Below, one piece after another: positions 1 through 52,864 of a DNA stretch of 64,000 bases. Made by a program: the position numbers and the translations under genes. The notes beneath the pieces were generated by a model. That model did not search any database. It saw only the letters and a program-made list of their open reading frames with translations, and was not told the origin of the DNA. Origin of the DNA: Pocillopora verrucosa (lineage: Eukaryota; Cnidaria; Anthozoa; Scleractinia; Pocilloporidae); the NCBI RefSeq assembly GCF_036669915.1, contig NC_089319.1, forward strand, positions 18,097,575 to 18,161,574, read 5' to 3'. Within the stretch, counting starts at the first letter, position 1. Each line of letters starts with the position of its first letter.

Positions 1-776
1 GCTGAAAGATTCTGTTTGATTGGCTGAGGAATCTGCCAAAAAATAGAAATTATTTTTTAGACAATATCATCGCTTTTACCTTAATCTTTTCCGTAAATGC
101 GCTGACAAACTTTCTCCATTTATTCATCCAAGTCGCGTCAATCCTACCACGGGACTGTATTCCTCTCAATTGAGCTCCAATATTCTAAAGTAATTTTCAC
201 TTCAGCATGGAAGGTAATCTGTAGTTGCTTTTGTTTTGCTGCATTTCGTCCTGTGATTGTTCAAGAAAATTCGCGCCTCTCTCAACCAATTAGATGCAAG
301 ACTTGAATCGATTGCGACGTGTTCGCTCCTGTTTTCCCGCGCTTTAGGCAGTTTGTTGGTTTTTAATTTGAATTCTCATTGACTCCTTGTGATATTGACC
401 CGAGAACTGACTGCTGGTAAATAATACTTTGGTTTTGGTTTTCCGTTACAAACATCAGAATTCGCTCTCACTGTTTTAGTTAGGTTTTTGTTAGAGATGA
501 TCAAGCGAAGAGATTGAATCTCGCTTCCAGACTTTATTCTCGGCAAGGGTAATCGCTATCAAATTGTTCTTAAATCACTCATGTTCCGGTTTTCGTAGAT
601 CCCAGGAATATCTAGAAGCACCTAATCCTGTGTCGTGAATCTTGTTAAAAAATGATTCTCAAAACATATAGAAACGCGAGAGAAGCATTTAGAGTCCTTC
701 CATGAGGACCATTTCGGCTTAAACTGAATAGTATATCTTGGTTCCATCAACTGAGTTGAACTTGTAAATTGGCTGC

Positions 777-1081: not shown

Positions 1082-4000
1082 TCACCAACCCATTGAAGCT
1101 ATCGTTTCTTGGCTTCCATTGATTTCGTTTTCCTCTGGTGGCATTGTGATAGAAACTGCGCCCGCAACCTTACGACCGTTGGAAAAAGTGCCACTCTCAG
1201 AATTTTGGACAAAAATATTTCGACCAGTCTGCGGATTGAATAACAAACAAAATTTTAAAAAAAACAGCCTCGAAGACATATTGACGCTACGTACACGACC
1301 CCGGTTCAATTACTGTAGGTTTGCTTCATGAATATTCAACAATATTCACTTATCCTATGGGAGAAAATTTGTTGAGTATAATTGTTCGGGTGACTATCAG
1401 GGGTTAAACGTAGATTTTATTCTATTTCTTCACCTCCAGTTTGTCACGCATTAAAAAGTAAGGCACAGAGTTTGGTGCTTAGAACCCGTGGTTAAAACGG
1501 TATAGTGCACATGACAGTAGCAAAACTGAACGAAACGAGATATTAATTTGTAGCGGTCGTGTCAACGTTCGTTTGCTAGAAAGTGTTAAACAGGCTTAAT
1601 ATGTCTCACAATAAGCCAATTACGACCAGTTAAATCCGAAAAGTTTATCGTTATTTCGATAACCTTCTGGCGCGGGGTGACTACAGAGAGATATAACGCA
1701 CTCCTTAGCAATTATACTGACATACCATAGGGATGCGACTGTTTTGCGATTCATCACATGTGGGCCTCGACTGACAGTTTAACGAATGGAGAACGAATTT
1801 TGTTCGACTGTGGTAGCAATGATATACAAACACAGGAAGAGTAAAATGGTTTACGACTGGGCAACTAATTTTACATGACTTGGGCACAAATTAACGTAAT
1901 TACAGGCGCACGAATGCTCAATTACTGCCGCACGAAAGTTTTATGACTTCTGTAAGATAGTGTATTTCACCTGTCGCGGTGAATACCCCGGGTAAAGATA
2001 AATTGAATACTCTGTTAAGCTGTCTTCTTGATTAAATTTAAGGTTGCAGGAAAATTCTTTCACTCCTGGACGTGCCGGTCTAACTGCAAAATCACAGGCA
2101 TCTTTGGCACGGAATCCATTGCGATATGCAGTGTCGTAGTTGTATTTCTACAAAGAAAGGTTGAAACGTATTACCTTGCATGGAAACTACTCAATTTATG
2201 GAAAAAGAAATGAACCATCCAAGTGTTTCTTTGATATCATAAATTCTTTCTCACTCTCCAAGACCTTGGTCAACTCCGCACATAACTTTATAACTGAGGT
2301 CATGGGAAAACATTCCGAAGCAATTTTTGGTAAGAATGAGTTGTCATGCTACGAAACATGACACGCTAAAGAAGCATTAGGCATTTGTTGGGGGGTAGAG
2401 GGGGGGAAAGGGAAAACGAATTTAAAGAAAATCCAAGATGACGTCATGCAATAATTTGCAGTGTCCAGCGGTCATACCACAAGATCTGTTGGAATTGCAT
2501 GTTAAATCTGCTCAATACCTGTACACTGGGAGTCTTATCCAGTTCCCAACCATCTTCAAGATCAGTGAGCTTCACGATCACATCCTTTTCGTCGTCGTAC
2601 ATCTTAAACGGTTTCTCCTTTGATGATCTCGAGCCAGGAAAAGACTCTTTCTCCTGCGCTTTCACTCGCTTGGTAAATAAAGATGTAAATCAAAGCATAA
2701 AGAGCGTCACTTAAGATGTTGTAAAATAAATCTCAACACAAATCTCAATCCAAATAAAACAGTGCAACAAGTATTACAAAGTCGACCCGACCCAGACCTC
2801 CCTCCTTTACGCGACTTGACCCAAGCCTCCCTCGTTTTTTTTCACTCCTCCGCTATTATCGTACCGTTTACAGCTACCATTTACCATTTCTCTCAGGTTT
2901 ACTAACTGAACGCCTGGAACAGGCTAGCAACAAAAAATAGTCTGAAAACACCCAGGCTCAAAAAATTGGTAGATGTACGCCCCAGGTATTGAGTTTTTAA
3001 AGGAATTACTCATTGCATAATAAGTAATTACTAAGTAACGCAGCTGGAGAGGGGGCTGGTCCGCACTCCTGTACTTCTTCCCTAAATCCGTCCTCTGAGC
3101 TTATTTGAGCTCATTATACAATACTTGACCATTTTAGCTGAGTACTCGTTTTGCGACATACCTTCCTTGAATCCTCATTATCACTGTAAATGTAGAATCG
3201 TAGGTAAATGTGATCACTTCTCGGGTTATGTCTGCTGAAGTAAACAGTCGCTCTCTTCCTCTTTGTTCCGCCACAGGCGAACACGCTCCAAATGGAAAAT
3301 TTTTTAGTCTTGATGAGGATGGAGTTCTTTTTCACTGTAAACCATGCTTTGGATTGGCAGTTTTTTTCTGATGCTGAGGGAATTTTCTCCCATTGTGGCG
3401 GCCCTTTAACATAATTAATTTGACAGCGTCTTTAGGTACCAGTTATCAACTATCGTCGTGGAGGTGGAGGGGGGGAACGACAGGGGATACGGAGGATTTT
3501 TGTGGGAATCACATGGTTTTGAGAGGGAACGGAGAGAGAATTATTCGTCGCCAAAAGAGCATAAAGGGTGACTGACTGCCGATTAACTGCCAGTGAGAAG
3601 GGGGGGGGGATAATACGAATATTACAGGGGCCTATGGGAGAATTAGGTAATTTGTATTTTGACACAACCAAAATTCCACCAGCCCAAAGTCCCCACCCAA
3701 GCCAGATGATAAATAAGGACTCGTCCCTTAGTAATTGGATGTTCCGGAATTAAAAAATGACGGTGTAGCTACCATAAATGCGAGAACGTACATTTGTGTA
3801 TACTTACAACCCGGAAAAATGCCTTCCTAAACAATACTTAGGATCGTTGTAAGCCCTGGTCTAGTAAGTTTAAACAGCCACTGGTTGTGTAAAATTTATC
3901 TTAAAACCGGCTCATTTTATTATTTTAAACCTTACCAAAACATCTCCAAAGTTGAAATTAAGAGAGTGTTCCGGTACCCAAGCTTGAATAAACTGTTTAC

Positions 4001-7000
4001 ATTCTTGGGGTGATGAGATTGTGCGACCAATCAAGTCGGCCGTCTTGGCCATATTGTTTGGTCAGTCCAGCCCAAATTCAGCGCTCTAATTGATTCCGGG
4101 CTTCATAACCCTCCTGTACCACTCCCATCTGTGCGTGAAAGCAATTGTTTTTAAAGTGCTTTTGCATAGCGATTTACAGTTACCTTTAGAAGATGGCTCC
4201 CATCTGTAAACCCTTATCAAATCCTTCCTGACCTCGTCCAAGCACAGATCATGCGGAACAGTGATTTCCACCGGCTTGAGCAAGGTAACGTTGTGAGGTC
4301 CACATTCGACAACGGGGGAAATTAGTGTTCCTTCGGGCATATCCGGGATATCCTGCAACAAAGTGGAGTCATCCTTGGGCACGCGGAAGAAAAAACGCTG
4401 TTTGGTGCCCTCTTGAACTGCTCCACTCCCTACAGTGATAAAGACATCAGAGTCCGGTGCGATAAGTTGTCCACCAGAGCTGTCGAACGTGGCCTCTGCT
4501 TCCGTTATGTATCCAGGTGACCTATAGGAAACGAGGTCGATTATCATTAAAAATGTGGTGGAAACTGTGATTTGGAGGTCCCCTTATGGGGAGAACATGT
4601 GTTTAAATCGACCTCAGTAACAAGAAAACCTAGGTAAAGAAACAAAAATTTAAATAATCTGAGCTTACACAACTCGTTTCCACACCTACCTTGAGTCAGT
4701 TCCATCAGATTGAGAGATATGATGAACATCTGCGACCACAAGATTATTTTGAAGGGGAAGCAAAGTGTGCTGAGCTGGGTTGTTGAGATTTGGTAGAGAA
4801 TCTCCTGTTTCATCCTCCTGAGTATGCTTTGATCTTGTGGGGCTCTCGGTCTATCGGTTAAATTAAGCAGTAAAAATCACTCTCTGAAATGGCAACAAAG
4901 TGTTCAAGGATGGTCAATATTGTGGACGAACCCACCATTACTATACCTGTTCTGTGTAAGCTCCTGTAGCGCTTGATATAGAAGCCCCATCACAGCAGTC
5001 CGACGATGCCACACAGCGTGAAGGGCGTCTGCAGTTTGGACGAGGACAAGCGAGGCTACACCCTGTCAGTAACAAGACATTGCAGCAAATATTTGAATAA
5101 CTTAATGGCGGAATATTGTTTAACAATCTCCGAAACGAAGTCGAGGGCATTATTCAACAATATTTTTTACGCTTGAGGCAAATAACTGTTTTAGTATAAT
5201 TCCTCAGGTGCTTTTGAATTCTGTTGTAAATTCATTCTGCTTTGCAACAAAAGGTTCAACAATATGTTTTCAATGTTTAATATGTTCAATTACGTAAAAG
5301 ATGACCTTTCCATACTAAAACAGATTCGTATTTCAACTGGATATCAAGCGCTACTGGATATCATGCTCTACGTCCTTAACATATCCCGGAGCAAGAGGAA
5401 AGGGCGTAAGTAGAAATCTTGGGGGTAAGGGGGGTCTTGGGGGTTCTGTATTACTTTCTTAGAATCGTTGGGGAGTATGCAAGGTTATTTTCATCATTAT
5501 CATTAAAAATTATAAATTTGTACTATGGATTCAGATGTCTTTTTATCCATTGCACTCAAGTGTTCATGCGCACGTCAAAAGTGACGTACCTCATGCCATG
5601 CTCTCCAAATAACCTAACATAAATAAATCCCTCAGCTGCAAGACGTCCAAATCATTTACCTTTGGTTTTCTTTTGCTGCCTCCATTGCTTGATTGCTAAA
5701 ATCGTCGCCAAAGCAACAACGGAAACTACCACCAGTATCACTAGCCAGTTTTGAGAATGTTGGAACACACCCTGGCTAGGTTCATGGTGTGAGTCTCTGA
5801 CTTTATCTTCCTTTGTTGGAGGAGGGATTTCGACTTCTAAACGTCCGCTGTTACTTGTGACCATTAATGTCGCTTTGTCATTATCAGTTCCTGTAAAAAG
5901 ATCACCGAAAGGAACTGACAAAAATGGCTGATATATCAGAGATATTTTAAAAATCTCGTTTAGAATTACACAGACACATGGTCGAGGTAGCAAACTGAGC
6001 GTTAAGCGTCACTGTAAGCACAAAAAAGCTCGCAGAAGTTCTTAACACTAGTTGTTATTCTTGTCTCAGTTTATTTGGTTTCCTGAAAACTAACGGATTA
6101 TTTCCCACAGCTTTTCACTTCTCCTTCGAACATCGAAAAGAAATGTGAGATGAATTTCTCCCCCCCCCCCTCCCCCCCCCCCGCCACCTTAGTGCTTCTC
6201 TCTCAGACTGAGGAGACAACGTCACCTTACCACCCTGGGGCGATCCAGAAATTATTGTTGGGGGGATCCAAACTTTGATAAAGAAAAGGCAATTTTTCTT
6301 TTCCACAATAGGGTCTAACAAATTAAATAAGGAAATAGAACTCTTGTAGATCATTTTATTTGATCTTTTGGGTCATTTTTTCATTATACTTCATGCTAAA
6401 TGGTAGCACGTAATCCTACCATTGCAAGGATTTTGTTGTCGGACAAGTAGTAAAAAATACCCAAACAGATCTGACTGAGATGAGATCGTGACCCTCGGAC
6501 CCTTCCCCTGGATATGTCAGGGGAGTAAGAAGGGCTAAGGTTGTGTTGCCAAGGGTAAGAGCAGCTTGGCCACTGACACGGAACAAAACCGCTGAGGAGG
6601 ACAAAGTCAGTTAAGCCTTACCCGGCCTCCACCTGGTAGTAGGATGTCGATAGGATTCTGTGCTATTTTCGTCATCCATTCCATAGTTAATGTTCTCGGC
6701 CTTGACGCTCTCTGAAGGTAAACCAGGTGATGCTATACGCGTTGTCATTGCATCTGTTTTGTTTTGACGGATGTCTCGCGGTTCACGACTTGGATAGTTT
6801 TCACCATCTCCCGGCATTTTAAAATTTGTCGGTGTTTTAAAGGAGGAAACGGATTTTTCTGTCGGGCGAGATGGAGGTCGACGTTTGGAAGGAATATCCA
6901 GTCGGAGTGTAGGGCCGATGATTTTTCCCGCGGGAGGAGTAATTGGCCTATCGACGCTCCGCGATGATGATGGTGAGCTATAAAAAGCAGAACTAACCAA

Positions 7001-10000
7001 AACTGTTCCTTGGTCTACAGCACTTGTGGGCTTTGTAGAGAAGAAAACACTTGAAGGCGTTGGATCAACAGAAGGTATCACAGATGCAAGGATGTTAGCG
7101 TTGACATGTTTCTCGAAAAATGCACGTTGATGCTGAGGCTTAGGGTTCTTTCTGCCATTTTCCCAGGGATTAACCTCCTCTCTTAAAGCAAAAATTCGTT
7201 CCTTGGGCACTTTTTTCTCCTTGATATTTTTGCGAACAGAATCAACTGCAAAATAGAAAAATGAGACGCATGATGAGATACAATTGGCATGTAGTATGTC
7301 CCAGTTTGCGTCACTCAAACTTCTCAATGTCAAATATTCAAATACTTAAGATGTATCAGAGCGCTTCGCGACCGAAAAAAAATTTTGGTTTTCGAAATTT
7401 TCACGAGTGTCTGAAGAAGCGACGACTAATACCCCCTCCATTTCCCTCAAAAGCCATGTGATCCCCCCCAAAAAATTCTTTATCCCCGGCGTTAACCCTC
7501 TACACCCTGAGAGTGATCCGCATCTAATTTCTCCTTGCTGTGTCACCCCTGAATCACACATTAAGGTCATGAGAATAAAGAAAATGATCACCAACTAAAG
7601 AAGCTCTTGAATGTTAACCAAATTCTCCTTGTCAGCACCTCAGGAAATGTGTAGAGAACAGTATGGAGAATATGCATACTGATGTTAGGGTGTAATGGGT
7701 TGATAACGACAGTTCCCAATTGTCCATCCTCCTCTGGTGGGCACCTCCCATAGGCATACACAACATAACGGCCCTAGGAAAACCCGCTCGTTTCATCTCA
7801 TGACAGAAAACACCTTTCGGGCTGAAGAGGGTACTTATTCTTGGTCTTTTGTGCACTATTTACGAGACGCTTGAGGAAAAAGAAAAGTCGCTCTGATTTT
7901 GGATAGAAATTCAGTGATTACCTTTAATTCCGCATTCAACATAACTTCTGAGCAAGCTCTCAGAAAAGTCGTTTTTATTTGGAAAGAACTCAACTATTAC
8001 CTTTAATTCCGCATTCAACTTTACCATAACTGCTGAGGAAGCTCTCAGAAACTGGACACTTAACACAACCAGTGTCTCTCGTCTTTCCACAAGGCCTGAA
8101 CACACCGAAGCCTGGAGGACATTTGCTGCATTTTACACAAATAGTATTCGATGTTGAATTACAGGTATGAAACTCGTATTCATTGTAACCACATCTGGTG
8201 CAGCGCTTGCATGTTCCTCGGCTAGAAGGCTTATCGTTGTATGTTCCTTCAGCGCACTTTACACATCGTGACTCTTCATTTAGAGAGCAGACTGTAAAAG
8301 ATCCTGCAGGGCATTCCTTGCAGGATAGACTGGACAACTTGGGAGAACTACCGCTAAGCGACTGTGAGAAGATAGAAGGGGAACAACAACAAAGAAATTA
8401 GTGTTGTCGGATTAAACTTTGTTTTCCCGAAAAAAAAACAAAAAAAACAAAAACAAAAACAAAAAGCTCTAAATGGGGGAGGGGAGGGAAGGGGGAGAGG
8501 GAGGGGAGGCTCCTTTACGTTCCTCTCTTTTCTACGCTTCAATGTTTACGCCTGCTAAGCTGGCTTTTAAGATCAAGAAAGAAAATATTAGTTTTGAATT
8601 CAGTTGGTAGCTTGGATTGTGTTATCAATTCTTATTCATTGAAAAAGTAATTTTACAACTTCAAACAATACCACTCAGGAGGTACGATCCTAAGCAAATT
8701 GTTATACTAAATAATAACAGCTTTGCGGTGAGATAAAAACAGTTTAATTATGAGAAATTTTATTTTTAGCCTACGCAAATAACGTTTTGTACCAGCGGTC
8801 TCAAGTATCATCTAGTCAAAATAACATTACACGTGATCGGCAACAACATTGTGATCTTTACCCATCCGTTTTCATCTGGTATAAAATAATTCGCTTTCAA
8901 TTTGTCTTCTAGCTTTGATCGTATGTTTGGTTGATAACTGTTTCGTATCAAGAAAAGCGGATCAGCTGAAAGTTGAGCAGGCTTTGTTTAACGATTAACA
9001 ATGACCGTATATGGCTACTTTGGAACAATGGCGGAAACAGCTTTAAAATACACGCGGGATTTTTCAAAATTTCCGATTATCATACGAGCGGCAGATTTAA
9101 ACCATCGGCAAAACTGGTGATACGACAAATCCTCCCCGTGGGGTGATTCTGGTAGATTTTTTAGGATGCAAATAGTCACGGTGGGGTGGATGGTGGGGCG
9201 ACTGTAGCTTTCGTATCTGAAGTAAAGAAATGTCACCGTTTTACATTGCTTAAAACTGGCGAAAGATATATATATATATTAGAGCATGTGTAACCTGGTG
9301 TTAACGTCCGAAGCCTACCACCGCCGTTGAATCATTTAGAAGACTATCGTCATTTGCTCGATTGTTTAATGTGCGGGTATTTAAATTTCGCGCTGCGTGA
9401 ATGGGATTTTGTTCCTGATGTGCACAAAAAGGTTCATATTCTCCTTCCTCTAATGTGTGATTTAAACCTGGTGATAACGTCCGAAGCCTCGCGCGTCGTT
9501 AATTCATGTAGTTTTACGGGTATCTTTCTCTTTCCGTATTTCAATTCAACGAAAGGAGTTAAAAAAAAACAATGGCGAGTGGAAATAGTCGCACGCGCTC
9601 GTCAATTTCTCCCATTCGACACGACTGTTCAATCCGAGTATATTTAAATTTCGCGCTTCGTAAGCAAGAAAAACTGAATAATCTCCTCCCACAATTTTTT
9701 GTGTTTACACAAACCGACATCTAATTGATACCTATTCATCCTTTTGTGTGATAGCAGGAGGTGAGATTTTTTTCGCATAGTCATGTTCTGCTAGTTTCTT
9801 TCTTTTTTTTTTTGCTCAACAGGTTATGTGTATTCAATCACATCACTGACGCTGTCAGATTCATCCACCAAATTTTAGGCCAAACGAATTTCGCGCTACG
9901 AAAGTTATCCTATTTTCTTAGTTTGCATAAAGCGCTACGCAATCGCCTCCCATAATTTGCTTACCGTAGCGTAAATGCATAAGCCCAGCAAAAACTTAAC

Positions 10001-12920: not shown

Positions 12921-14313
12921 GTAAGGTTTTATCTTTCTTGATTTTAGTGGTAGATACTATATTTAGGTTATTTTGTACCAGATAATACCGCATGATGTAT
13001 TTTTGTACATGATTAAATGTTTTTCCTATAGCATTTGCCTGAGGCTGAACATGCATGTACAGTCCTGTATCTCTGTCATTATCTCTGTTCTTTAAAATTT
13101 GTAATTACATTTAATGCCACATAATATGTTCACATTTCTTGCTTAACCCCTACCATTTTTGCCCGATAAATTTGTTATAATGATACAAGACAGTAATTGT
13201 ATGTATGTATTTTAATCATGAGTCAGGCAGAGTTCCATGTTCCCTGCTCTGTCTGCTTCTTTAGCAGTTGACATTCCCCAAGTTAGCTCTCTGTGTCCCA
13301 TTGTTTCCAGTCCCAATTGTGTAACCGTAGCCTCAAAGTTTATATCGCCTATATCTTCAATTTTCAAATTCTTCTGTCTCAATGAAAATTTTCAATTATC
13401 ACTATTTAGGCATCATTTTTATATTTTTGTAATTTATTTTATGCAGGGCCCCACTGGAAAAAAATATTTGTGACGTAGCTCCTGTTGAAATATTTTTATT
13501 AACCATGTTTTTTATTACCACGCTATTGTTAATTTTTTTTAATAGGAAAACGTGTCCTACACTGTTCTAAGGACCAAACTATATTATTTACATCTGGCAT
13601 CAGTTTCAGTTCTGTTTTCTAACAAAACATACAATTTTTTAGTTAGTATAGGTAATCGCATGGGGCTGAGTCAAATGAAGAATTAATATCACGCGTGTTT
13701 TCAGAAGTTACAGAATTGCGCGGGCAAAGGCAATTTATTGTTAAAGGAATAATTTTTTTCCTTAACACTTCTTTTTTTTAACTTCAAATAATTAATAAAA
13801 ACTTCTAGGAGGACCAGCTACGGCACAATCAATTTCGTAAGACCATTATTACCAGTATTTATAGTTGACAGTATTACCATGTGTTAGAGGATTGTGTAAA
13901 AATTGAAATAATAAGATAATTACAATAAAAAATTAGTACCAAATTTATCATAAAAATAAGTGAACAATTTCTTGCGTGTTAGACTCTCTTAGGTTGAGAG
14001 GGACAACAGTAGACTACGTTCCTTCCATGAGCAAAAAACCGAAATAAAAAATTAATTCTTGAAAGTTCCTGTTCAACTAAAAGGGACATTTTCTTGCCTA
14101 CAAAGTAACTTCCTTCAATTTATTTACCATTTACAGAAACGACTTTCCTCCTTAAATTTCTTACCGTCATACTTCAGTTCCTGAATAACGAAAACAATAC
14201 AAGTAATAGAAATATTTTAAAGAACAGACTAGCTAAATCAGAATACAACTTTTCCTAGCCGAGTAGCTGATATAAGGTCCTAAGTTCCTAAGGGGTGTCA
14301 GTTGAGATGTCAG

Positions 14314-14528
14314 TTAACCCCTTTAATTCCTGAGAGTGACTAGCATCCTAATTGCTCTCCTTTTTCAATCATCAACCCATGAATGGAACATTAAGGTCAT
14401 GATAATAAAGGAAACGATACTCAACTGACTTTTGGTTGTTGAACAAATTCTCCTTGCCAGCACATTTTGAAATGTATAGAGAACATTAAGGAGAATGTGC
14501 ATATTGATGTTAGGGTGTAACGGGTTAA
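14314..14528. mobile_element. Short TTAACCC-ended repeat (MITE-like, family B)
   Basis: The ends read TTAACCCCTTTAATTCC... and ...TTAGGGTGTAACGGGTTAA, an imperfect inverted pair. The interior (ATTAAGGTCATGATAATAAAG, TCTCCTTGCCAGCAC) recurs at 7,492-7,703 and, in diverged or partial form, near 32,745-32,900 and 33,645-33,800. It is non-coding. Transposition by a foreign transposase is inferred from the dispersed copies and inverted ends. Confidence 0.65.
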
Positions 14529-15047
14529 AGAAATATGAATTCCATATGTAAGAAATCTAGTAGAACTAACCGAAAACGAAAGAAAATTATACTAAAATAT
14601 TTTCTAAAAAATCCAGGCAGAAACACGGACCTGGCGAAACAACTTTATGGTCTGATAGGAAAAGATTCGAATTTAACTGAACTTAAAACAGGTAACAAGC
14701 CAGCAAGTAATTATGGTAATCTGGTTCAAATAATTGCCGCCCTTTCTTAATTTGGAGTAGCAGCGTCTCTCTCTGCATCTTATAAAGGATGGTATCTTGT
14801 TTATTCATAATTACACACCAAAACTTGCATTCCGTTGCTTTGCAAAGTTCATATTTCCATGTTGGTATTACTTTAAACCACAGAACTAGAGAAAGAGGCA
14901 AATTTATTTTTCATGCCACTCTACCTTAGTCCTTACACCTTTCTCTTGCAGCATCATTTTTTTTCCACTGATTTCGGCTTTTGACTCGCACAACGGACTT
15001 CGTCGAAAACGAGAAACCGCTTGTAGACTACGTTGTCATTACAGAGT

Positions 15048-15352
15048 TTAAGAAACGACGACGGCGACGCCGTGGACAACGTCGGTTAAAAAATTACTTA
15101 TATTTTACCTACGAATCTCGTGATACTCTGAAGCCGTTTAGTTTGTTTCTCGCTGTCAAAGCTATCTCGAAACTGAATATGGAACACAGCGTTAAATTAG
15201 AAATGTAAATTTTAAAAAATCAGCCAGCTGAGGACGCAAAGCATTTACAAAATTTACAACGTGCACAGTCATTGTTCTTCCCGTGAAACTTTTTGTTTAG
15301 TGACGTTCCCGTTGCCGTTGCTGTCGTGATTTTCTTAAACTCCTTGTTAATT
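15048..15352. mobile_element. MITE-like element with GTTTAAGAAA inverted ends
   Basis: The left end reads AGTTTAAGAAACGACGACGGC. The right end is the approximate reverse complement (GCTGTCGTGATTTTCTTAAACT). The interior is non-coding. Arms rich in repeated ACG/ACGGC words are typical of small foldback elements in cnidarian genomes (my recollection). The exact borders are approximate. Confidence 0.55.
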
Positions 15353-15849
15353 GTCAGTAAAGCCAAAGCAAAGCATTCTCCACTCTCAGTGAACTATTTA
15401 AAAATATAGAAAGGTACGAATGACAAACCTAAAACTAGAAATACGAGAGACGAAGGAGAAAAGTTCGGGTGGGTTTTTTTTGTTTTTACGGCACGAGTCT
15501 TCCACATCTTACTGTCCGTGGTTGGAGGGAAATAATGGCAGAACTTAACTGACGAAAGGAAGCTAAAAAGCCGAGGATAAATGTATTATTTTCCCTTCAA
15601 TTCAAGTGACGCGACTGGCTTCAAACGCAGGAAACACGAGTAATAAAGTCGCAGCTAATAGTTTTGAACATATAAATAGTTGGAATAATAGATTGTGCAG
15701 GGTCGCTAAACCAATCACTGAACGACTTAATGTACTGTACTGAAATACCAATACCATTCCAGAGTACTCACGACAGTGAACTTAAACATTCTTGATTTTA
15801 TTTCAGACTGCAACCGTAGTCTGTAATAAATATGATAATAGTTATACAA

Positions 15850-16140
15850 TGAATATTTCAACGTCCCATACCTCAATTCTCTTAACTTTTTCAAAGCTTC
15901 CGTGCAGGCGTGCCTCACGAAGAACGTCACACAGTTTTTTGGTAGTAGCTTCCTCGCCGAAACGTCTTTTCCACCTCAGTAGACCTTGGTACAAACTCTC
16001 CTCTCTTCCACCCCATATTGTTCACTCACGCATATGATTCACGCAAATATTTTGCGGATCTCCGGCTCCTTGAGACCCATTTTCGATTCGCAGCACTTCC
16101 TTCCATTTAGCACCGATTTCCTCGCAGTATAGCAGTGGAA
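15850..16140 (-). pseudogene. Death-domain relic, frameshifted, downstream of receptor copy 2
   Basis: On the minus strand, three consecutive fragments together read as a death domain. The first is EEIGAKWKEVL (about 16,122-16,090). The next, MGLKEPEIRKIF, is in another frame (about 16,080-16,045). The last is LLRWKRRFGEEATTKKLCDVLREARL (about 15,983-15,906, given here as a pattern: W, GEEAT, LCDVLR). The order and spacing match the six-helix fold, including the conserved W and the L..W...G..AT...L...LR signature. At least two frameshifts and an in-frame TGA break it. An acceptor-like TTTCAG precedes it near 16,193. It lies 1.2 kb beyond the receptor stop at 17,397, same strand. The most likely reading is a lost C-terminal exon of the receptor; assembly error is the main alternative. 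Confidence 0.7.
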
Positions 16141-16851
16141 ATGGTCTTCTGTTGCTGGTTGTTCTGTCACTTCCCCGCGAGGCTATATCGCAGCTGAAAG
16201 ATTCTTTTTGATTGGCCCAGGAATCTGCTAAAAAAAACATTCATCGATACCCACAAATCATTGCTTTTATGTTAATCTCTTTCGTAAATGCGCAGACAAG
16301 CTTTTTCCCCCATTGTATTCACCCCAGTCGGCTCAATCCTACCACGGGATGGCATTCCTCTCAGTTTAACTCCAATACTCTAAAGTAATTTTCAGTTGAG
16401 CATCGAAGGTAATCAGATGTATTTCGCTCTGTGAGTGTTCTGGAAAATTCGCGCCTCTCGCTCACCAACTTTACTCTCGGCAAAGGAAACTCGTCCATCA
16501 AATTGTTCTTATTTACTCGAGTTTCCCGTTTTCGTACATCCCAGGAATATCCAGAAATAATCCAATCCTGTGGTCGTGAATTTTGCCCTTCAAATGATTC
16601 TTCAAACATATAGAAATGCGAGAGAAGCACGTGTAATCCTTCCATGGAGACCATTTTGGCTCACACTGTATAAGATTTGGGCCTAAGACAGAAAAACTTT
16701 TCAGTTTTTTTTACAGTTTAAAGTGATAAACTGTGGTACTACGTGGGTGGTGGGGGGGGGGGGGGGGGGAGAGGGTATAATTGGTTCTATTAACTGAGTT
16801 GTTTTGTAAATTGGCTGCCGTAAAGAGTTTCTAAAGCTGAAGTTTCGAGCT

Positions 16852-17218
16852 TTATTACACCCATTTTGAAATCACTAGTGGTCCCTGTAATCTGATTGGC
16901 TGTAATTGACGTGATTTATTCACGAATCGCACCATTTTTTTTATTTAAATCGCACCTTTTTCCCAGGCAATGAGGAGGCAACACTAAGAACGAAACGACC
17001 AATCAGATTTCAAGACTTTTTTAAAGTAACCGATCAAATTGCAGAAATATGAAAGACAAAGAGTATCATGAGGCAAATTTTGCAACTTTTGTTTCCAAAA
17101 CTCTTATTTTTTCCCCCCAAGAGATGGATGAATTTTCAGACCGGCTCAGTACGGCATCAATAAAATGTTTGAACTGACCAAGTCCTGTATTTGGGCGATT
17201 TCAAAATGGATGTAATAA
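16852..17218. mobile_element. MITE-like element with TTATTACA.CCATTTTGAAAT inverted ends
   Basis: The left end is TTATTACACCCATTTTGAAA and the right end is its near reverse complement (TTTCAAAATGGATGTAATAA). It interrupts the dispersed hairpin repeat that is whole in copy 1, so it inserted after the duplication or was lost from copy 1. A further palindromic stretch of about 140 bp (17,222-17,362) directly follows, so the element may be larger. A second copy lies at 28,018-28,383. It ends only about 35 bp from the stop codon of receptor copy 2. Confidence 0.75.
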
Positions 17219-17396
17219 AGTGGTAATTGAACCTCGTGTCGTGTAATTTTGGTCTGAAATCATACTTGTGATTTCAAATCGAACTCGCGCTGCGCGCTCA
17301 TTCGATTTTGAAATCACGCGTATGATTTTAGCCCAAATTGCACTCCACTCAGTTCAATTACCATTATTTAGCCCTTAGGATAACGAATCGATGTCA

Positions 17397-20300
17397 CTAA
17401 CCCATTGAGGTTATCGTTTCTTGGCTTTCATTGATTTCGTTCTCCTCTGATGGCATTGTGATAGAAACTGCACCCGCAAACTCACAACCGTTGGAAGATG
17501 TGCCACTCTCAGAATTTCGGACAAAATTCTTTCGACTTGTCTGTTGATTGAATAACAAACAAAATGAAACAGAATGACTTCGATGACACATTGACTCATA
17601 ACTAAGTCCTAAACCATCCCACAATTGCTACGTACGCGACTCCCGTTCGATTACTGTCGGTTTACTTCACGAATGATTAACAATATTCACTTATCCTTCA
17701 GGAGATGACCAGTTTAGTATAATTGTTAGGGTGACTATCAGAGGTAAAGAGAGGTTTGGTGCTTGGTTAATCCGTAAAGTGCACTTGACAGTAACAAAAC
17801 TGAATGAAACGAGATATTTATTTGTAATGGTCGTGTCAACGTTCGTTTGCTAGAAAGCGTTAAACAGGCTTTATATGTTTAACAATAAGCCAATTACGAC
17901 CAGTTAAATCCGAAATGTTTAGCGTTACTTCGATAACCTTCTGGTGCGGGGTGACTATAGCGAGATACAACGCACTCCTTAGCAATTATGCTGACATACC
18001 ATAGGGTGCGACTGTTTTGCGATTCATCACATGTAGGCCTCGACTGATAGTCAAACGACTGGGAAACGAATGGAGAACGATTTTTGTTGGTTTGTGAGAG
18101 CAGTAATACACTAACACAGGAGAGGTAAAATGGTTTACGACTGGGCAAATAATTTTATACGACTTGGGCACAAATTAATGTCATTACAGGAACAGGAATG
18201 CTGAATTACGCGAGTGTTTTACGACTTCTGTACAATAGTGTACTTCACCTGTCGCGGTGAATACCCTGGGTAAAGATAAATTGAATACTCTGTTGGGCTG
18301 TCCTCTTGATTAAATTTAAGGTTGCATGAAAATTCTTTCACTCCTGGACGTGCTGGTCTAACTGCAAAATCACAGGCGTCTTTGGCACGGAATCCATTGC
18401 GATATGCAGTGTCGTAGTTGTATTTCTACAAAGAAAGGTTAAAACGTATTACCTTGCGTGGAAACTACTTAACTTATGGAAAGAGAAGTGAATCATCCAA
18501 GTGTTTCTTTGTTATCATAAATTCTTTCTCACTCTCCAAGACCTTGGTCAACTCCGCGCATAACTTAATAACTGAGGTCATGGGAAAACATTCCGAAACA
18601 ATTTTTGGCGAGAATGAGTAGTCATGATACGAAACACGACACGCTAAAGTAGCATTAGGCATTTGTTGTGGGGTGGAGGGGGAAGGGAAAACGAGTTTAA
18701 AGAAAATCTAAGATGACGTCATGTAATATCTGCAGTGTCCAGCGGTTATACCATAAGATCTGTTAGAACTGCATGTTAAATCTGCTCAATACCTGTTCAC
18801 TGGGAGTCTTATCCAGTTCCCAACCGTCTTCAAGATCAGTAAGCTTCACAATCACATCCTTTTCATCGTCGTACATCTTAAACGGTTTCTCCTTTGATGA
18901 TCTCGAGCCAGGAAAAGACTCTTTCTCCTGCGCTTTCACTCGCTTGTTAAATAGGGATGTAAACCAAAGCATAAAAAGCGTCACTTAGGATGTTTTAAAA
19001 TAAATCTCTACAAAAATCTAAATCCAAATTTAACAGTGGAACAAGTTGTACAGAGTCGACTCGACCCAGACCTCCCTCCTTTTCGCGACTCGACCCAAGC
19101 CTCCCTCGTTTTTCACTCCTTCGCTATTATCGCACCGTTTACAGCTACTATTTAGCATTTCTCTCAGGTTTACTAACTGAACGCCTGGAACAGGCTAGCA
19201 ACAAAGAATCGTCTGGAAACACCCAGGCTCAAAAAATATGGTAGATGTAGGCCCCAGCTATTGAGTTTTTAAGGGGGGAGGGGGAGGAGGAGGGGGAGGG
19301 AGGTAGTTCGCACTCCTGCACCTCTTCCCTAAATCTGTCCTCTGAGCTTGATTGAGCTCATTATGCTATACTTGACCATTTTAGCTGAGTACTCGTTTTG
19401 CGACATACCTTCTTTGAATCCTCATTATCACTGTAAATGTAGAAGCGTAGGTAAATTTTATCACTTCTCTGGTTATGTCTGCTGAAGTAAACAGTCGCTC
19501 TCTTCCTCTTTGTTCCGCCACAGGCGAACACGCTCCAAATGGAAAATTTTCTAGTCTTGATGTGGATAGAGTTCTTTTTCACTGTAAACCATGCTTTGGA
19601 TTGGCAGTTTTTTTCTGACGCTGAGGGAATTTTCTCCCATTGTAGCGGCCCTTTAACATAATTAATTTGACAGCGTCCTCAGGTACCAGACATTATATAT
19701 GGGGGGGGGGAGGGGGATTAGTTGCCAGTGAAAGGGGGGGAATCATACAAATATTATAGGGGCCTATGGGAGGATTAGGTAATTTGTATCTTGACACAAC
19801 CAAAATTCCTACCCCCCTTCCCTACCTACCTAGATGATAAATAAGGACTCGTCTCTATGTAACTGATGTAGCCACCATAAATGCGAGAATATATACATAT
19901 GGATATGCTTAAAACCTGGAAAAATGCCTTCCTAAGCTATTTCTAGGATCGTTGTAACCTTTGGTCAAGTCAGTATAAACAGCCACTGATTGTCTGAAAA
20001 TGATCTTAAAACCGGATCATTGTGTCTGTTAAAACCTTACAAAAACATCACTAAAATTAAAAGAGTGTTCCGGTACCCCAAGCTCGAATAAACTGTTTAC
20101 ATTCTTGGGGTGATGAGATTGTGCGACAAATCAAGTCGGCCATAATGTCCATATTGTTTGGTCGGTTCAGCCCAAATTCAGCACTCTAATTGGTTCCGGG
20201 TTATATAACCCTCCTGTACCACTTCCATTTGTGCGTAAAAGCGATTTTTTTAAAAGTGCTTTTGCATAGCGATTTACAGTTACCTTTTGAAGATGGCTCA

Positions 20301-23300
20301 CATCTGTAAACCCTTATCGAATCCTTCCTGACCTCGTCCAAGCACAGATCATGCGGAACAGTGATTTCCACCGGCTTGAGCAAGGTAACGTTGTGAGGTC
20401 CACATTCGACAACGGGGGAAATAAGTGTTCCTTCGGGCATATCCGGAATGTCCTGCAACAAAGTGGAGTCATCCTTGGGCACGCGGAAGAAAAAACGCTG
20501 CTTGGTGCCCTCTTGAACTGCTCCACTCCCTACAGTAATAACGACATCAGAGTCCGGTGCGAAAAGCTTTCCACCAGAGCTGTCGAACGTGGCCTCCGCT
20601 TCCGTTATGTATCCAGGGGACCTATAGAAAACAGGGTCGATTATCATAGAAAATATGAGGGAAACTGTGATTTGGACGTCCCGTTATGAGGAGAAAATGT
20701 GACTAAATCGACCTCAGTGTTAAGACAACTTAGATAAAGAAAAAATAAACTTACACAACTCGTTTCCCCACTAACCCTGTGCCAGTTCCATCAAATTGAG
20801 AGGTATGATGAACATCTGCGACCACAAGATTACTTTGAAAGGTAGGCAAAGTGTCCTGAGCTGGGTTGTTGAGATTTGGTAGAGAATCTTCTGTTTCATC
20901 CTCCTGACTATACTTTGATCTTGTGGGGCTTTCAGTCTATCAGTTAAATAAGCAGTAAAAATCACTCTCTGAAATGGCAACAAAGTGTTCAAGGAAGGTC
21001 AATATTGTGGACGAACCCACCATTACTATACCTGTTCTGTGTAAGCTCCTGTAGCGCTTGATATAGAAGCCCCATCACAACAGTCCGACGATGCCACACA
21101 GCGTGGAGGGCGTATGCAGTTTGGACGAGGACAAGCGAAGCTACTCCCTGTAAGTAACAAGACATTGCGATAATTATTTGAATACCTTAATAGCCGCATT
21201 TTTGGCGGAATATTCTAAAATAATCTTCAAGACGCAGACGAGAGCATTATTCAACAATATTTTTTAGCTTCAGGCAAATGGCTGTTTGAGTGTAATTCCT
21301 CAGGTGCTTTTGAATTCTGTTGTAAATTCTTTCTGCTGTGCAACAAAAGGTTTAACAATATATTTACGATGTTCTTAAGTAAAGGATGACCTCTCCATAC
21401 TTGAACACATCCAATCTCTACTGGATATCATGCTCTACTGGATATACCTTTCCATACTTGAACACATTCGTACTTCTACTGGATATCATGCTCTACTGGA
21501 TATACCTTTCCATACATGAACACATTCGCACTTCTACTGGATATCATGCTCTACTGGATATACCTTTCCATACTTGATCACATTCGTACATCTACTGGAT
21601 ATCATGCTCTACTGGATACACCTTTCCATACATGAACACATTCGTACTTCTACTGGATATCATTTTCTACTGGATATACCTTTCCATACTTGAACACATT
21701 CGTACTTCTACTGGATATCATTTTCTACTGGATATACCTTGCCATACTTGAATACATTCGCACAGAAATACCTAGATATACCTATAAAGGGCGTGAGTAG
21801 AGGTCTCGGGGGTAAAGGGGGTCTTAGGGGGTCCTGCATTACTTTCTTAGAATCATTGGGGGGCATGCCAGGTTTCTGTTATCGTTATTATTAAAAATTA
21901 TAAATTTAAACTTTGGATTCGGTGTCTTTTTACCCATTGCACTCAAGTGCTCATGCGCACGTCAAAAGTGACGTACCCCATACCATGCTCACCAAATAAC
22001 CTAACATAACTAAATCCCTCAGCTGCAAGACAGGATCAATATCAGTATCTGGGCAACTGCCCACCTACCTCTCCCCTACGTCGGGTTAGGGGAGGGGTAG
22101 GTGGGCAGTTGCCCAGATACTGATATTGATCCGCAAGATATCCAAATCATTTACCTTTGGTTTTCTTCTGATGCCTCCATCGCTTGATTATTAAAATCAT
22201 CGCCAAAGCAGCAACGGAAACCAATATCACTACTATCACTAGCCAGTTTTGAGAATGTTGGAACACACCCTGGTCAGATTCATGGTACGGGGCTCTGACT
22301 TCATTTTCCTCTGTTGGAGGAGGGAAGTCAACTTCTATATGTCCGTTGTCACTGGTGACCATTAATGTCGCTTTGTTAATATCAGTTCCTGTAAAAAAAT
22401 TATCGAAAGGGACCGACAAAAATAGATGATATATCAGAGATATTTTGAATATCCCGTTTAGAATTACACAGACACATGGTCGAAGTAGCAACCTGAGTGT
22501 TAAGCGTCACTGTCAGCGCAAAAAAGCTCGCAGAAGTTCTTAACACTAGTTGTTGTCATCTGGTTTCCTAAAAAATTAACGGATTATTGTCCACCGGCTT
22601 TTCACTTCTCCTTTGAACATCTAAAGAAATGTGAGATGAACTTCTTTGTGAAGTTCAAATGAATTTCTGAAAATCAACAACTCCCCCCCCCCCGCGCCAC
22701 CTTTGTGCCTCCCTCGCCGACTCAGGAGACAACGCACCCAACCACCCTGGAGCGGATGCAGAAATTATTGTTGGGGGGATCCAAACTTTGATTAAGAAAA
22801 GACAATTTTTCTTTTCCGCAATAGGGTCCAACAAACTGAGGAGGACAAAGTCAGTTAAGCCTTACCTAGACTCCACCTGGTATTGCGATGTCGATAGGAT
22901 TCTGTGCTAAGTTCTTCATCCATTCTATGATTGATGTACATGGCTTTGACGCTCTTAGAAGGTGAAACAGGTGATGCTACACGCGTTGTCGTTGCATCTG
23001 TTCCGTTTTGACGGGTGTTTCGCGGTGTACGACTCGGATAGCTCCCATCATCTCCTTGAATTTCAAAATTTGTCGGTTTTTTAAAGTAGGAAACGGATTT
23101 TTCTGTCGGGCGAGATGGAGGTCGACGTTTTGAAGGAATATCCGGTCGGAGTGTAGGGTCGATGATTTCTCCCGCGGGAAAAGTAATGGATTTCTCGACG
23201 CTCCGTGATGACGATGATGAGCTATAAAAAGCAGAACTAACCAAAATTGTTCCTTGGTCTACAGCACTAGTGGGCTTCGTAGAGAAGAAAACACTTGAAG

Positions 23301-26075
23301 GCGTTGGATTAACAGAAGGTAACGCAGATACAATGATGTTAGCGTTGACATGTTTTTCGACGAATGCAAGTCGATGCTGAGACTTGGGGTTCTTCCTGCC
23401 ATTTTCCCAGGGATTAACCTCCTCTCTTAGAACAAAGAAACTATCCTTGAGCTTTTCTTTCTCCCTGATATTGTTGCGAAAAGAATCAACTGCAAAACAG
23501 AAAAATGAAACGCATGATAAGACACAACTGGCGTGTAACATATCTCAGTTGCCATCACTTAAACTTCTCATGTCAAACATTCAAATACCTAAGAAGTATC
23601 AGAGCACTTTGCAACCGAAAAAAATCTTCTAGTTTTCGAAATTTTCACGAGTGTCTGAAGAATCATGGAACAAAGATTTCTTTTGCCGATTCCTTTTTTC
23701 ACAACACAACCGTGTCTTGATATGGGACCAGTCATTTTTTATTCAGAGGGGGGGGGGGGGGGGTTTGGAAGATTCTGGTTGTGTCACTATAAAATTTACC
23801 TTTTCCCTTCTTAAGGCTCCGAAATATTTTTGTGATTCCTCCCTCAACTTTCCATAGCCCCCCCCCTTTATGCTCCGCTGTGCGACAACCAATACCCCCT
23901 TCATTTCCCCTAAAAACCATGTGATCCCCCCCAAGAGAGTTCTCCCTCCCTGGCGTTAACCCTTTAACTCCCATGAGTGATCAAGATAGAATTTCTCCTT
24001 ACAAGATCAATACAATATCAATCAGATAAGTGATGAGAGTAAAGAAAAACATCAATTTGGGGATCCAATGCTAAATTCTCTGAACTAACATTAATAAGAA
24101 TTTTATGGTTGACAGTAAGGAGAATTACAAATTTGATCTGGGAGTTAAAGGGTTAATTAACAACTGGTCCCAATAATCAATTCCATTCTGGTTGGCACCT
24201 TCCGTAGGCATACACAACATAACGGCCCTTGGGTCAACCCCCGCTCGTAACATCTCACAACAGAAAACACCTTTCAGGCTGAAGAGGGCACTTATTTTAG
24301 GTCTTTTTTGCACCGTTTATGGAACGTTTGATTGCAGGAAAAGGAAAAGTCGTTCTGACTTTGGAAAGAAATTCAACTATTACCTTTAATTCCGCATTCA
24401 ACTTTACCATAACTGCTGAGGAAGCTCTCGGGAACTGGACACTTAACACAATCAGTGTCTCTAGTCTTTTCACAAGGCCTGAACACACCGAAGCCTGGAG
24501 GACATTCCCTGCATTTTACACAAACGGTATTCGACGTTGAATTACAGGGATGGGACTTGTATTCATTGTGACCACATCTGGTGCAGCGCTTGCATGTTCC
24601 TCGGCGAGAAGGCTTATCGTTGTATGTTCCTTCAGCGCACTTTACACATCGTGACTCTTCATTTAGAGAGCAGACTGTAAAAGATCCTGCAGGGCATTTC
24701 TTGCAGGAAGGACTGGACAACTTGGGATAACTACCGCTAAGCGACTGTAAGAAGACAGAAGGGGAACAACAACAAAGAAATCAGTTTGGATTACACTTTG
24801 TTTACCGGAAAAAAAAGGAACAAAAAGCACAAAATGGGGGAGTGGGAGGAGAGGGGGGGAGAAAGATGAAGAGGGAGGGGAGGGGAGAGGGGGAGGCTCC
24901 TTTTCTACATGTCTATGTTTACGCCAGCTTAGCTAGCTTCTAAGATCAAGAAAAAGCAAACATCAGTTTTGAATTCAGTTGGTAGTTTGGATTGTTTTAT
25001 CGATTCTTATTCATTAAAAAGTGACTTTTAAAACTTCGAACAATAGCACTCAGGAGGTACGATCCTAAGCAAATTCTTATACTAAGTAATAACAGCTTTG
25101 CGGTGAGATAAAAACAGTTTAATTTGAAGAAATTTTATTTTACCTTGAGCAAATAACATTTTGTACCAGAGGTCTCAAGTATCGAGCGTCTAGTCAAAAC
25201 AACATTACATTTGCCGGCAACAATATTGTGATATTTGCCCTTACGTTTTCCTCTGGTATCAAATATTTCGCTTTCAATTAGTCTTCTAGCTTTGATGGTA
25301 TGTTTGGTTGATAACTATTTTTATCTTGCGATTACTACAGTATTCATGCTTTCGACTTCATGGAATACACGTTTGCTTACAGATAGCGAAGATCATCTTT
25401 GGTGGTAATCGTCACTAACTCATGATGACGATTACAAACAAAGGAAGCTTTTGCGTAACAACGACCCTTCCGCTTTCGGTTTCGAAGTGGACAAAGTGCC
25501 TATTCATCTCTCAGAATGAAAATTTAATTCTTGTGGACAAAGGCAAAATCCAAAACGCCTTTGAAAATGTGCCAACTAAGGAAACAACTGTTTCAGTATT
25601 GCACACAGAGACAGCAATCAGTTCAGCGAGATTATTTTTTATCGATTTCGTTAAACGCTGTGAAGAAATAAACTCACTGAAATGATTGCTGTTGCTGTGT
25701 ACAATACTGAAACAGTTGTACCCTTAATTACCACATTTTCAAAGGCGTGCCAAACCGGCAAAACCTAAGTCCAATTGACATGACAACGAAGACTTCTCTT
25801 TAACATTAAGCTTGTCGGAAGCAATCGATTGGAATAGGATGATTTACTCCTAAGTTTACAATGACAGCTCAGATTTCGAGAACCGTTATGGCGATTCCGT
25901 TCTGAGAAGCGCCAGTTAGAAATATAAAGTATGCAGGTGATGAAAGACTGATTTAACAAACAGTCCTAACATACATATCAACCAATATTTCCAATATAGA
26001 TATGTTAGAGGTACTTACACTGCTTGTGTTGATTCCTATAAATGTGAAAGCAACAAAAAGAACCTCGTACACCAT
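17397..26075 (-). CDS. TNFR-type receptor with cytoplasmic ZU5-UPA region, copy 2 (11 exons, 856 aa)
   Basis: Exons, in transcript order: 26075-26019, 24744-24384, 23489-22866, 22388-22155, 21147-21032, 20903-20776, 20621-20284, 19650-19409, 18942-18793, 18425-18249, 17540-17397. Exon lengths equal those of copy 1 except exon 4 (+3 nt, one extra membrane residue) and exon 11 (-3 nt, earlier TAG). The frame is intact over 2,571 nt. The domain order is the same: signal peptide, TNFR repeats, Ser/Thr-rich stalk, membrane helix, ZU5, UPA-like region, no death domain. The exon 6 donor has shifted to CAGG|GTTAGT but keeps phase. Two full-length frames kept open argue that both copies are functional paralogs. 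The start lies 1,234 bp head-to-head from the plus-strand gene at 27,310. Confidence 0.85.
21393..21770. repeat. 58-bp minisatellite (about 6.5 units)
   Basis: Units begin TCCATACTTGAACACATTCG at 21,393, 21,451, 21,509, 21,567, 21,625, 21,683 and 21,741, an exact 58-bp period with few substitutions. It lies in intron 4 of receptor copy 2. Copy 1 has only about one unit at the same place (5,312-5,372), so the expansion followed the duplication. Confidence 0.93.
22033..22132. mobile_element. 100-bp near-perfect foldback element with target duplication
   Basis: Arms of about 45 bp (GGATCAATATCAGTATCTGG ... CCAGATACTGATATTGATCC) flank a short loop. GCAAGACA on the left and GCAAGATA on the right look like an 8-bp target duplication. 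Receptor copy 1 shows the empty site at about 5,638-5,650. A diverged relative lies at about 54,555-54,653. The 8-bp duplication would suit hAT-type mobilisation (inference). Confidence 0.85.
23956..24156. mobile_element. MITE-like element, TTAACCCTTTAACTCCC inverted ends (family A)
   Basis: The ends TTAACCCTTTAACTCCCATG and CTGGGAGTTAAAGGGTTAA are inverted repeats. The interior includes AATTTCTCCTTAC and ATCAATTTGGGGAT. Related copies lie at 31,100-31,311, 33,801-33,999 and 42,541-42,747. It is non-coding and lies in intron 2 of receptor copy 2. Confidence 0.8.
25555..25752. repeat. Long imperfect palindrome in intron 1 of receptor copy 2
   Basis: Left arm words CTTTGAAAATGTG, ACAACTGTTTCAGTATTG, ACACAG and CAGCAATCA recur as reverse complements on the right (TGATTGCTG, CTGTGTACAATACTGAAACAGTTGT, CACATTTTCAAAGG). 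The arms are about 70 bp around a loop of about 55 bp. Copy 1 (about 10,285-10,460) has only the left-arm-like sequence and a different middle. It could be an inverted duplication or a small foldback element. Confidence 0.75.
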
Positions 26076-52685: not shown

Positions 52686-52864
52686 TTTAATGTGAAGGTT
52701 CCTAAAGTATCAAGAAGAACAGAGTGTTATGTCTTATAAATCATCATTACTTATTAAGTAATATATTGCCCCCTCTATATCGCTTTAAGCTTATTTAAAG
52801 TATTGAAGTACAAAGAGTTTAAGAACGAGGTCAAAAGTTGTAAACAAATATTTGTGAATTTAAA

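Follow-up and report, generated by a model that had tools for sequence, protein, structure and literature searches.

The UNC5 netrin receptors have an ectodomain composed of Ig and TSP1 domains. In UNC5B, the death domain (DD) follows the ZU5-UPA block, and the ZU5-UPA-DD unit is held in a closed, autoinhibited state, which opens on activation. CRADD (RAIDD), which also carries a DD, is a soluble adaptor. A table in PMC4979521 gives 40 TNFR-type proteins for Acropora digitifera, 13 of them with a death domain, and the paper raises the role of death-less invertebrate TNFRs as a question. A literature search that covered few subscription journals found no tandem TNF receptors with an UNC5-like ZU5-UPA-death tail among the matches listed, and such a TNFR plus UNC5-like architecture is not described in the searched text of PMC4979521, PMC8195603, and PMC12909245. 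These results hint that the combination of TNFR with ZU5-UPA-death might be new.

The DD examined here belongs to copy 2 (c2) of three tandem TNF-receptor-type genes (c0, c1, and c2). Positions given without a contig refer to the window, i.e. the whole stretch of 64,000 nucleotides that was analysed (C8:18097575-18161574). Judged from the genomic sequence, the copy 2 DD is the final coding exon of a TNF-receptor-type gene with an UNC5-like ZU5-UPA-death cytoplasmic module (Table 1), and all copy 2 exons would be spliced into one transcript. The TNFR_c6 profile matched two stretches of the ectodomain, with values of 1.5e-17 for c2, 4.3e-17 for c1, and 3.1e-18 for a fourth, more distant homologue described below. 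A hydrophobic stretch, recognized by eye and not by a predictor, follows the ectodomain in c0, c1, and c2. The c2 ZU5 and UPA regions together matched residues 5-274 of 405 in UNC5B (PDB 3g5b; 2.9e-10), and this alignment continued past ZU5. Scores with the Pfam UPA profile were below the cut-off of 27 bits for both c2 (14.7 bits, profile positions 6-125 of 140) and the fourth homologue (19.4 bits, positions 4-130 of 140), and a phmmer search with the joined c2 UPA exons alone found no UPA structure. TNFR, stalk, ZU5, UPA, linker, and DD occur in this order in each of the three tandem copies. Consistent with this result, the ancestral TNFR-TM-ZU5-UPA-death architecture proposed in the original prediction was recovered, with the membrane span assigned by eye.

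Table 1 Positions of receptor exons and neighbouring features in the window. AG/GT, splice-site dinucleotides; dN/dS values are pairwise against copy 1.
Feature	Position	Strand	Evidence or remark
Copy 1 DD exon, first bases	1..32	-	Remainder intact left of the window
Copy 1 linker exon	1090..1228	-	
Copy 1 receptor exons, TNFR to UPA exon 3	1971..8361	-	
Copy-2-specific insertion- and transversion-rich patch	15300..16720	.	Limits set post hoc
AATAAA 3' of DD exon	15797..15802	-	Found in c0, c1, and c2
Copy 2 DD exon as assembled, frame-broken	15842..16224	-	Stop of last fragment at 15842-15844
MITE-like element, 516 bp, internal inverted repeats	16850..17365	.	Lies in copy 2 linker-DD intron
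Copy 2 linker exon, phase 0 in, 1 out	17402..17540	-	Open, no indels in c0, c1, and c2
Read-through tail with stop, probably intronic	18219..18248	-	Past the UPA exon 3 donor
Copy 2 UPA exon 3, phase 0, donor CAG/GTGAAG	18249..18425	-	dN/dS 0.07
Copy 2 UPA exon 2	18793..18942	-	dN/dS 0.06
Copy 2 UPA exon 1	19409..19620	-	dN/dS 0.69 (2 synonymous, 6 nonsynonymous)
Copy 2 ZU5 exon	20284..20621	-	Pfam ZU5 1.7e-19; dN/dS 0.16
Copy 2 candidate cytoplasmic exon Y	20776..20936	-	AG/GT only
Copy 2 candidate cytoplasmic exon X	21032..21147	-	AG/GT only
Copy 2 exon with hydrophobic, membrane-span-like stretch and basic juxtamembrane run	22155..22388	-	Translation, by eye
Copy 2 stalk exon, Ser/Thr/Pro-rich	22866..23489	-	Open in c0, c1, and c2
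Copy 2 TNFR cysteine-rich-domain exon	24384..24744	-	Pfam TNFR_c6 1.5e-17; edges by AG/GT and alignment

The c1 DD, which the original prediction had expected to the left of the window, is present and intact at C8:18097284-18097529, adjoining the left edge (49.6-49.7 bits, 124-aa open frame). The c0 DD is likewise intact (C8:18084257-18084508; 47.5 bits, 116 aa). The underlying DD search covered the 353 Mb genome (52 contigs), and 150 of 292 candidates were scored. The fourth homologue (C8:19.571-19.578 Mb) comprises TNFR (62% identity), stalk, ZU5 (69%), UPA, and linker, and an intact DD (41.3 bits) ends the same domain order. Thus, a DD is located C-terminally to UPA and in compatible phase in c0, c1, and this homologue, with the c2 frame being broken as assembled. 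The shared order and phases in these three relatives support that the DD belongs to the copy 2 receptor. That it is the relic of an unrelated gene, a reading for which only its distance of about 2 kb from the UPA exon speaks, is hardly credible, being contradicted by the three intact relatives and by UNC5B, in which a DD follows the computationally matched ZU5-UPA region.

In the genome, the UPA exon 3 query detected at least eight places, namely c0, c1, c2, the fourth homologue, and four on contig C11; the ZU5 query detected at least nine, i.e. the same eight and a weak one on C3. As expected, no relative of the ZU5 query was found in viral and prokaryotic contig collections. The four ZU5-UPA loci on C11 (6.0-6.8 Mb) have 49-52% identical ZU5 domains. 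In the single one that was read, at 6.015 Mb, a stop interrupts UPA exon 2, UPA exon 1 is split between frames, and a search of its 10 kb with the copy 2 pieces as query detected no DD; this locus is a better candidate for real decay than c2. Separately, the c0 stalk exon (about 18090.9-18091.6 kb on C8) contains an in-frame extra segment of 114 nt, which repeats a Ser/Thr-rich part and is absent from c1 and c2.

A TTTCAG motif had been taken as the acceptor of the DD exon. It exists at about 16200-16195, but a better acceptor, TTTTTTTTAGCAG, ends at 16225 and is in phase with the preceding linker exon. At the corresponding position, c0 and c1 show an AG acceptor and the fourth homologue shows a phase-1 acceptor. 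From UPA exon 3 (phase 0) through the linker (0 to 1) to the DD, phases are consistent in c0, c1, c2, and the fourth homologue, and the c2 chain is phase-consistent without TTTCAG. UPA exon 3 ends in phase 0 with CAG/GTGAAG in c0 and c2 and CAG/GTGAAA in c1 (slash, exon end). In the fourth homologue, a donor-like GT occupies this place and is followed by a linker of identical phases and a phase-1 DD exon; no tail resembling that of c2 follows its UPA exon 3. The segment 16690-16517 was considered as an additional exon, since an acceptor, an open frame, and a suitable phase can be read there in copy 2. It was rejected, as it had no Pfam match, its copy 1 counterpart contains frame-breaking gaps, and the phase needs no such exon.

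The stop at 18219, where the copy 2 receptor had been thought to end, finishes 30 nt beyond the UPA exon 3 donor, with the intron starting at 18248. Because of the phase-consistent linker and DD chain and the missing counterpart of the tail in the fourth homologue, this stop is probably intronic, and a role of the tail as the real receptor C-terminus is doubted. The nine-residue tail and its stop are kept in c0, c1, and c2, with three synonymous and one nonsynonymous difference between c1 and c2. This conservation would suit a scheme in which all copies produce two forms, a spliced long one with DD and a short, death-less decoy that reads through to 18219. We consider such a scheme improbable: coding constraint cannot be claimed from 30 nt beside a donor, the tail differs between c1 and c2 (13%) about as much as the rest of the intron does (14%), the fourth homologue has no similar tail, and the broken DD would be left unexplained by this scheme alone.

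The broken DD itself had been predicted at 15850-16200 on the minus strand as fragments spread over two frames, together with a TGA, and all three fragments are present. Fragment 1 (EEIGAKWKE) and fragment 3 (LYQGLLRWKRRFGEEATTKKLCDVLREAR), the latter in one open frame, are located in frame 0 of the minus strand, and fragment 2 (MGLKEPEIRKIF) in frame 1 of this strand. Fragment 3 alone matched Pfam Death (PF00531) with 1.7e-5 and 25.3 bits (cut-off 22.6), whereas fragments 1 and 2, each alone, had no Pfam match. Fragments 1 and 2 joined to fragment 3 scored 31.6 bits. As seven of the eight shuffles made of the upstream part, likewise joined to fragment 3, reached 23.8-30.7 bits, the Pfam support for fragments 1 and 2 is thin. 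The sister copies, more than Pfam, support the upstream fragments as putative DD sequence: in tblastn searches, the upstream piece found the DD exons of c0 (1.5e-10) and c1 (8.7e-11), and fragment 3 found the same exons (1e-16 and 2e-16, respectively). After LREAR, the c2 frame leaves the frame common to c0, c1, and the fourth homologue, and the copy 2 DD as assembled has no continuous frame over the whole domain. Compared to c0, the c2 DD exon (15880-16224) has seven small insertions and no deletions. These seven insertions in 345 nt contrast with the 2512 nt of ten further exons or candidate exons of c2, which contain no frame-breaking indel.

The changes extend beyond the exon. About 1.4 kb of c2-specific changes covers intron, DD exon, and 3' flank and is unlike the rest of c2. 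The c2-specific indels of ≤10 bp comprised 24 insertions and 2 deletions in 15300-16720 versus 7 and 16 in 17400-25400 (p = 1.3e-5), and the copy-specific indels in the same patch were 5 insertions and 5 deletions for c1 and 0 and 4 for c0. Among the c2-specific substitutions in 15350-16720 (1258 sites) were 28 transitions and 61 transversions. This ratio differed from that in the upstream region 16850-25400 (162 transitions and 102 transversions over 6943 sites; p = 1.2e-6) and from that of c0 and c1 in the patch columns (87 transitions and 57 transversions; p = 2.5e-5). The counts of 24/2 indels and 28/61 substitutions were obtained with patch and upstream region in two separate alignments. 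In a single alignment (patch 15350-16720), c2 had 22/2 insertions/deletions in the patch versus 7/16 upstream (p = 1.7e-5) and 27/57 transitions/transversions versus 162/100 (p = 2.5e-6). No such shift was observed in this alignment for c0 (indels 0/6 versus 13/14, p = 0.06; transitions/transversions, p = 0.72) or c1 (p = 1.0 for indels and p = 0.46 for transitions/transversions). All p-values are nominal, and several tests were made.

Since the patch limits were picked after seeing the data, all 1400-nt windows were scanned with labels permuted within each copy. Windows were scored by insertions minus deletions and, separately, by transversions minus transitions; on each measure, 0 of 2000 permutations matched the best window of c2. 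The corresponding numbers of matching permutations, again out of 2000, were 1249 and 758 for c0 and 717 and 1022 for c1 (insertion and transversion measure, respectively). Transitions in the c2 patch (28/1258) were at the c2 background (162/6943), and only transversions and insertions were raised. Outside the DD exon, c2-longer indels numbered 18 at 979 patch sites versus 11 at 4247 sites of upstream introns (p = 3e-7), and c2-shorter indels 2/979 versus 18/4247 (p = 0.40), both counted for c2 against c0 and not polarised. Relaxed selection on the DD cannot explain the patch, because the upstream introns of c2, which are also unselected, differ from it. An origin of the patch from older sequence via conversion was rejected as well: c0-c2 transitions outside the DD exon (52/979) were no higher than in introns (272/4247), and the substitution spectrum differs. 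Two of the longer patch insertions are perfect tandem duplications of 4 and 5 bases, and several single-base insertions differ from the neighbouring base. When c2 was compared with c0, insertions were also enriched at 14250-14499 (5 against 1), and transversions were enriched at 14500-14899 and at 13700-14249; none of these stretches was polarised. The stretches in 13700-14899 perhaps have the same cause as the patch.

The MITE-like element inserted adjacent to the patch occurs only in c2 among the three tandem copies. The genome contains at least 40 complete or almost complete copies of its family, counting the one at 16850-17365. Relative to the family consensus, the copy at 16850-17365 has one insertion and one deletion, which is a normal indel load; the possibility that the patch runs through the element was therefore discarded. 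In 30 family copies including this one, which are the best matches and thus a biased sample, we counted 17 insertions and 38 deletions in total, with no copy exceeding three insertions. Hence, insertion noise is not a general property of this genome.

Beneath the damage, the DD exon retains signs of constraint. Transitions between c0 and c2 were found at 4 of 326 DD exon sites (1.2%), at 14 of 868 ZU5-UPA sites, and at 272 of 4247 intron sites (6.4%), corresponding to a depletion in the DD relative to introns (p = 1.7e-5) and not relative to ZU5-UPA (p = 0.79). This test is modest, since 326 sites should hold few transitions and both lineages contribute to the count. When counted a second time, over 345 codon sites, the DD had six transitions, three synonymous and three nonsynonymous, and only three DD exon transitions are c2-specific (two synonymous, one nonsynonymous). 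By comparison, 15 transversions separate c0 and c2 in this exon, 11 of which are T>G or C>A when read from c0 to c2. With transitions depleted as in ZU5-UPA, the DD would have been selected until very recently, or still is. The c2 DD thus appears to have evolved much like a constrained exon, on which another kind of change was then overlaid. In ZU5-UPA, synonymous/nonsynonymous changes per branch were 9/6 for c2, 4/5 for c0, and 12/7 for c1. The dN/dS values between c1 and c2 were 0.61 for the linker, 0.65 for TNFR, 0.79 for the stalk, and 1.42 for the membrane exon; the module is unevenly constrained, with the linker and UPA exon 1 (0.69) at higher values.

These data bear on the original prediction, in which the DD decayed and its remains are the fossil of a change from death to non-death signalling. 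Ordinary slow decay of an unneeded DD, in a receptor that ends at 18219, would account for the broken c2 frames in the assembly and for the in-frame stop after UPA exon 3 with its similar tail in all three copies. We nevertheless regard it as very unlikely. The DD is retained in two of the three tandem copies, the stop is located beyond a donor, and the fourth homologue lacks a similar tail. In addition, the damage to c2 consists of an insertion- and transversion-rich patch with indel and substitution spectra unlike those of c2's own unselected upstream introns. Instead of the neutral substitutions and mixed indels of a decayed exon, we observed depleted transitions, as in ZU5-UPA, and 24 insertions to 2 deletions.

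We conclude from the sequence comparisons that the c2 frameshifts are probably a local sequence or assembly error (rough probability 0.6) and that the real c2 would also have a DD. Local error is the most likely of the main readings, followed by a recent real burst of mutations, with slow decay being the least likely. The A<->C and G<->T classes comprised 39 of the 89 c2-specific patch substitutions versus 55 of 264 upstream (p = 5e-5). According to PMC7671305, insertions are the main error of raw PacBio reads (7.4-8.8% versus 1.1-2.1% substitutions in three table rows), and A<->C and G<->T transversions are raised. The patch resembles raw or under-polished PacBio sequence as described there in both respects, but differs from it in that the excess of ~43 transversions is larger than that of ~23 insertions and in that only about 1.4 kb is affected. 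The fit to PacBio error is imperfect because of this substitution excess over insertions and the two perfect tandem duplications. The searches with the locus as query against genome DNA retrieved only c2, c0, and c1, and no second assembly of c2. Insertion-rich patches are not general, and the MITE-like element adjoining the patch is normal, which argues against the error reading.

The main competitor of local error is a set of real, recent lesions, in which a local burst of mutation, or an event of error-prone repair, introduced numerous transversions and small insertions at the 3' end of copy 2 and broke its DD while ZU5-UPA is still constrained. Copy 2 would then be a DD-truncated receptor beside two intact sisters. 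The long contigs (353 Mb in 52), the normal MITE-like element next to the patch, and the two perfect tandem duplications are in favour of this scenario, and the 9 synonymous and 6 nonsynonymous ZU5-UPA changes on the c2 branch suggest constraint. Tandem duplications are common in real mutation. Yet ~43 transversions and ~23 insertions in excess within 1.4 kb, where neither deletions nor transitions are raised, are extreme for a single natural event, and several single-base insertions were not copied from the neighbouring base. We therefore treat a real burst as possible but clearly less likely than local error. Slightly more doubtful still is the further step that a germline burst represents the conversion of a death receptor to a decoy at its first stage, with ZU5-UPA still constrained.

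If frame-broken DDs of this kind result from errors in assembly or from wrongly modelled 3' ends, the death-less TNFR counts may in part be artefactual. Should c2 be truly and recently broken, the locus shows the states before and after side by side.

Elsewhere in the window, similar repeated segments that look helical by eye recur in several ORFs at 35118-41604 on the plus strand, and these ORFs perhaps form one large multi-exon gene. Two similar single-exon GPCR-like genes on the minus strand (51570-52709 and 58552-59646) and, between them, an RT-like ORF on the plus strand (55301-55936) were also recognized by eye.

A ligand may gather the TNFR ectodomains of these receptors, upon which the ZU5-UPA-DD block, if closed as in UNC5B, would open, and the opened DD could recruit a death-domain adaptor. 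Both c0 and c1 have an intact module, and the c2 frames are broken only inside the abnormal patch of ~1.4 kb. Among known structures, the DD of the soluble adaptor CRADD (RAIDD) was the best PDB match to the joined c2 pieces (0.024, in the part of fragment 3), a weak match that only suggests membership in the fold. With the UNC5 netrin receptors (TM-ZU5-UPA-death, with the DD of UNC5B at the same place), copy 2 shares the cytoplasmic domain order, its UPA domain being putative, but its ectodomain is of the TNFR cysteine-rich type in place of Ig and TSP1 domains. With death receptors of the TNFR1/Fas/p75NTR type, it shares the TNFR cysteine-rich ectodomain, a putative membrane span, and the C-terminal DD, and differs from them in the ZU5-UPA block between membrane and DD. 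The parts of copy 2 are thus of known kinds, those of TNFR death receptors and of the UNC5-type cytoplasmic module.
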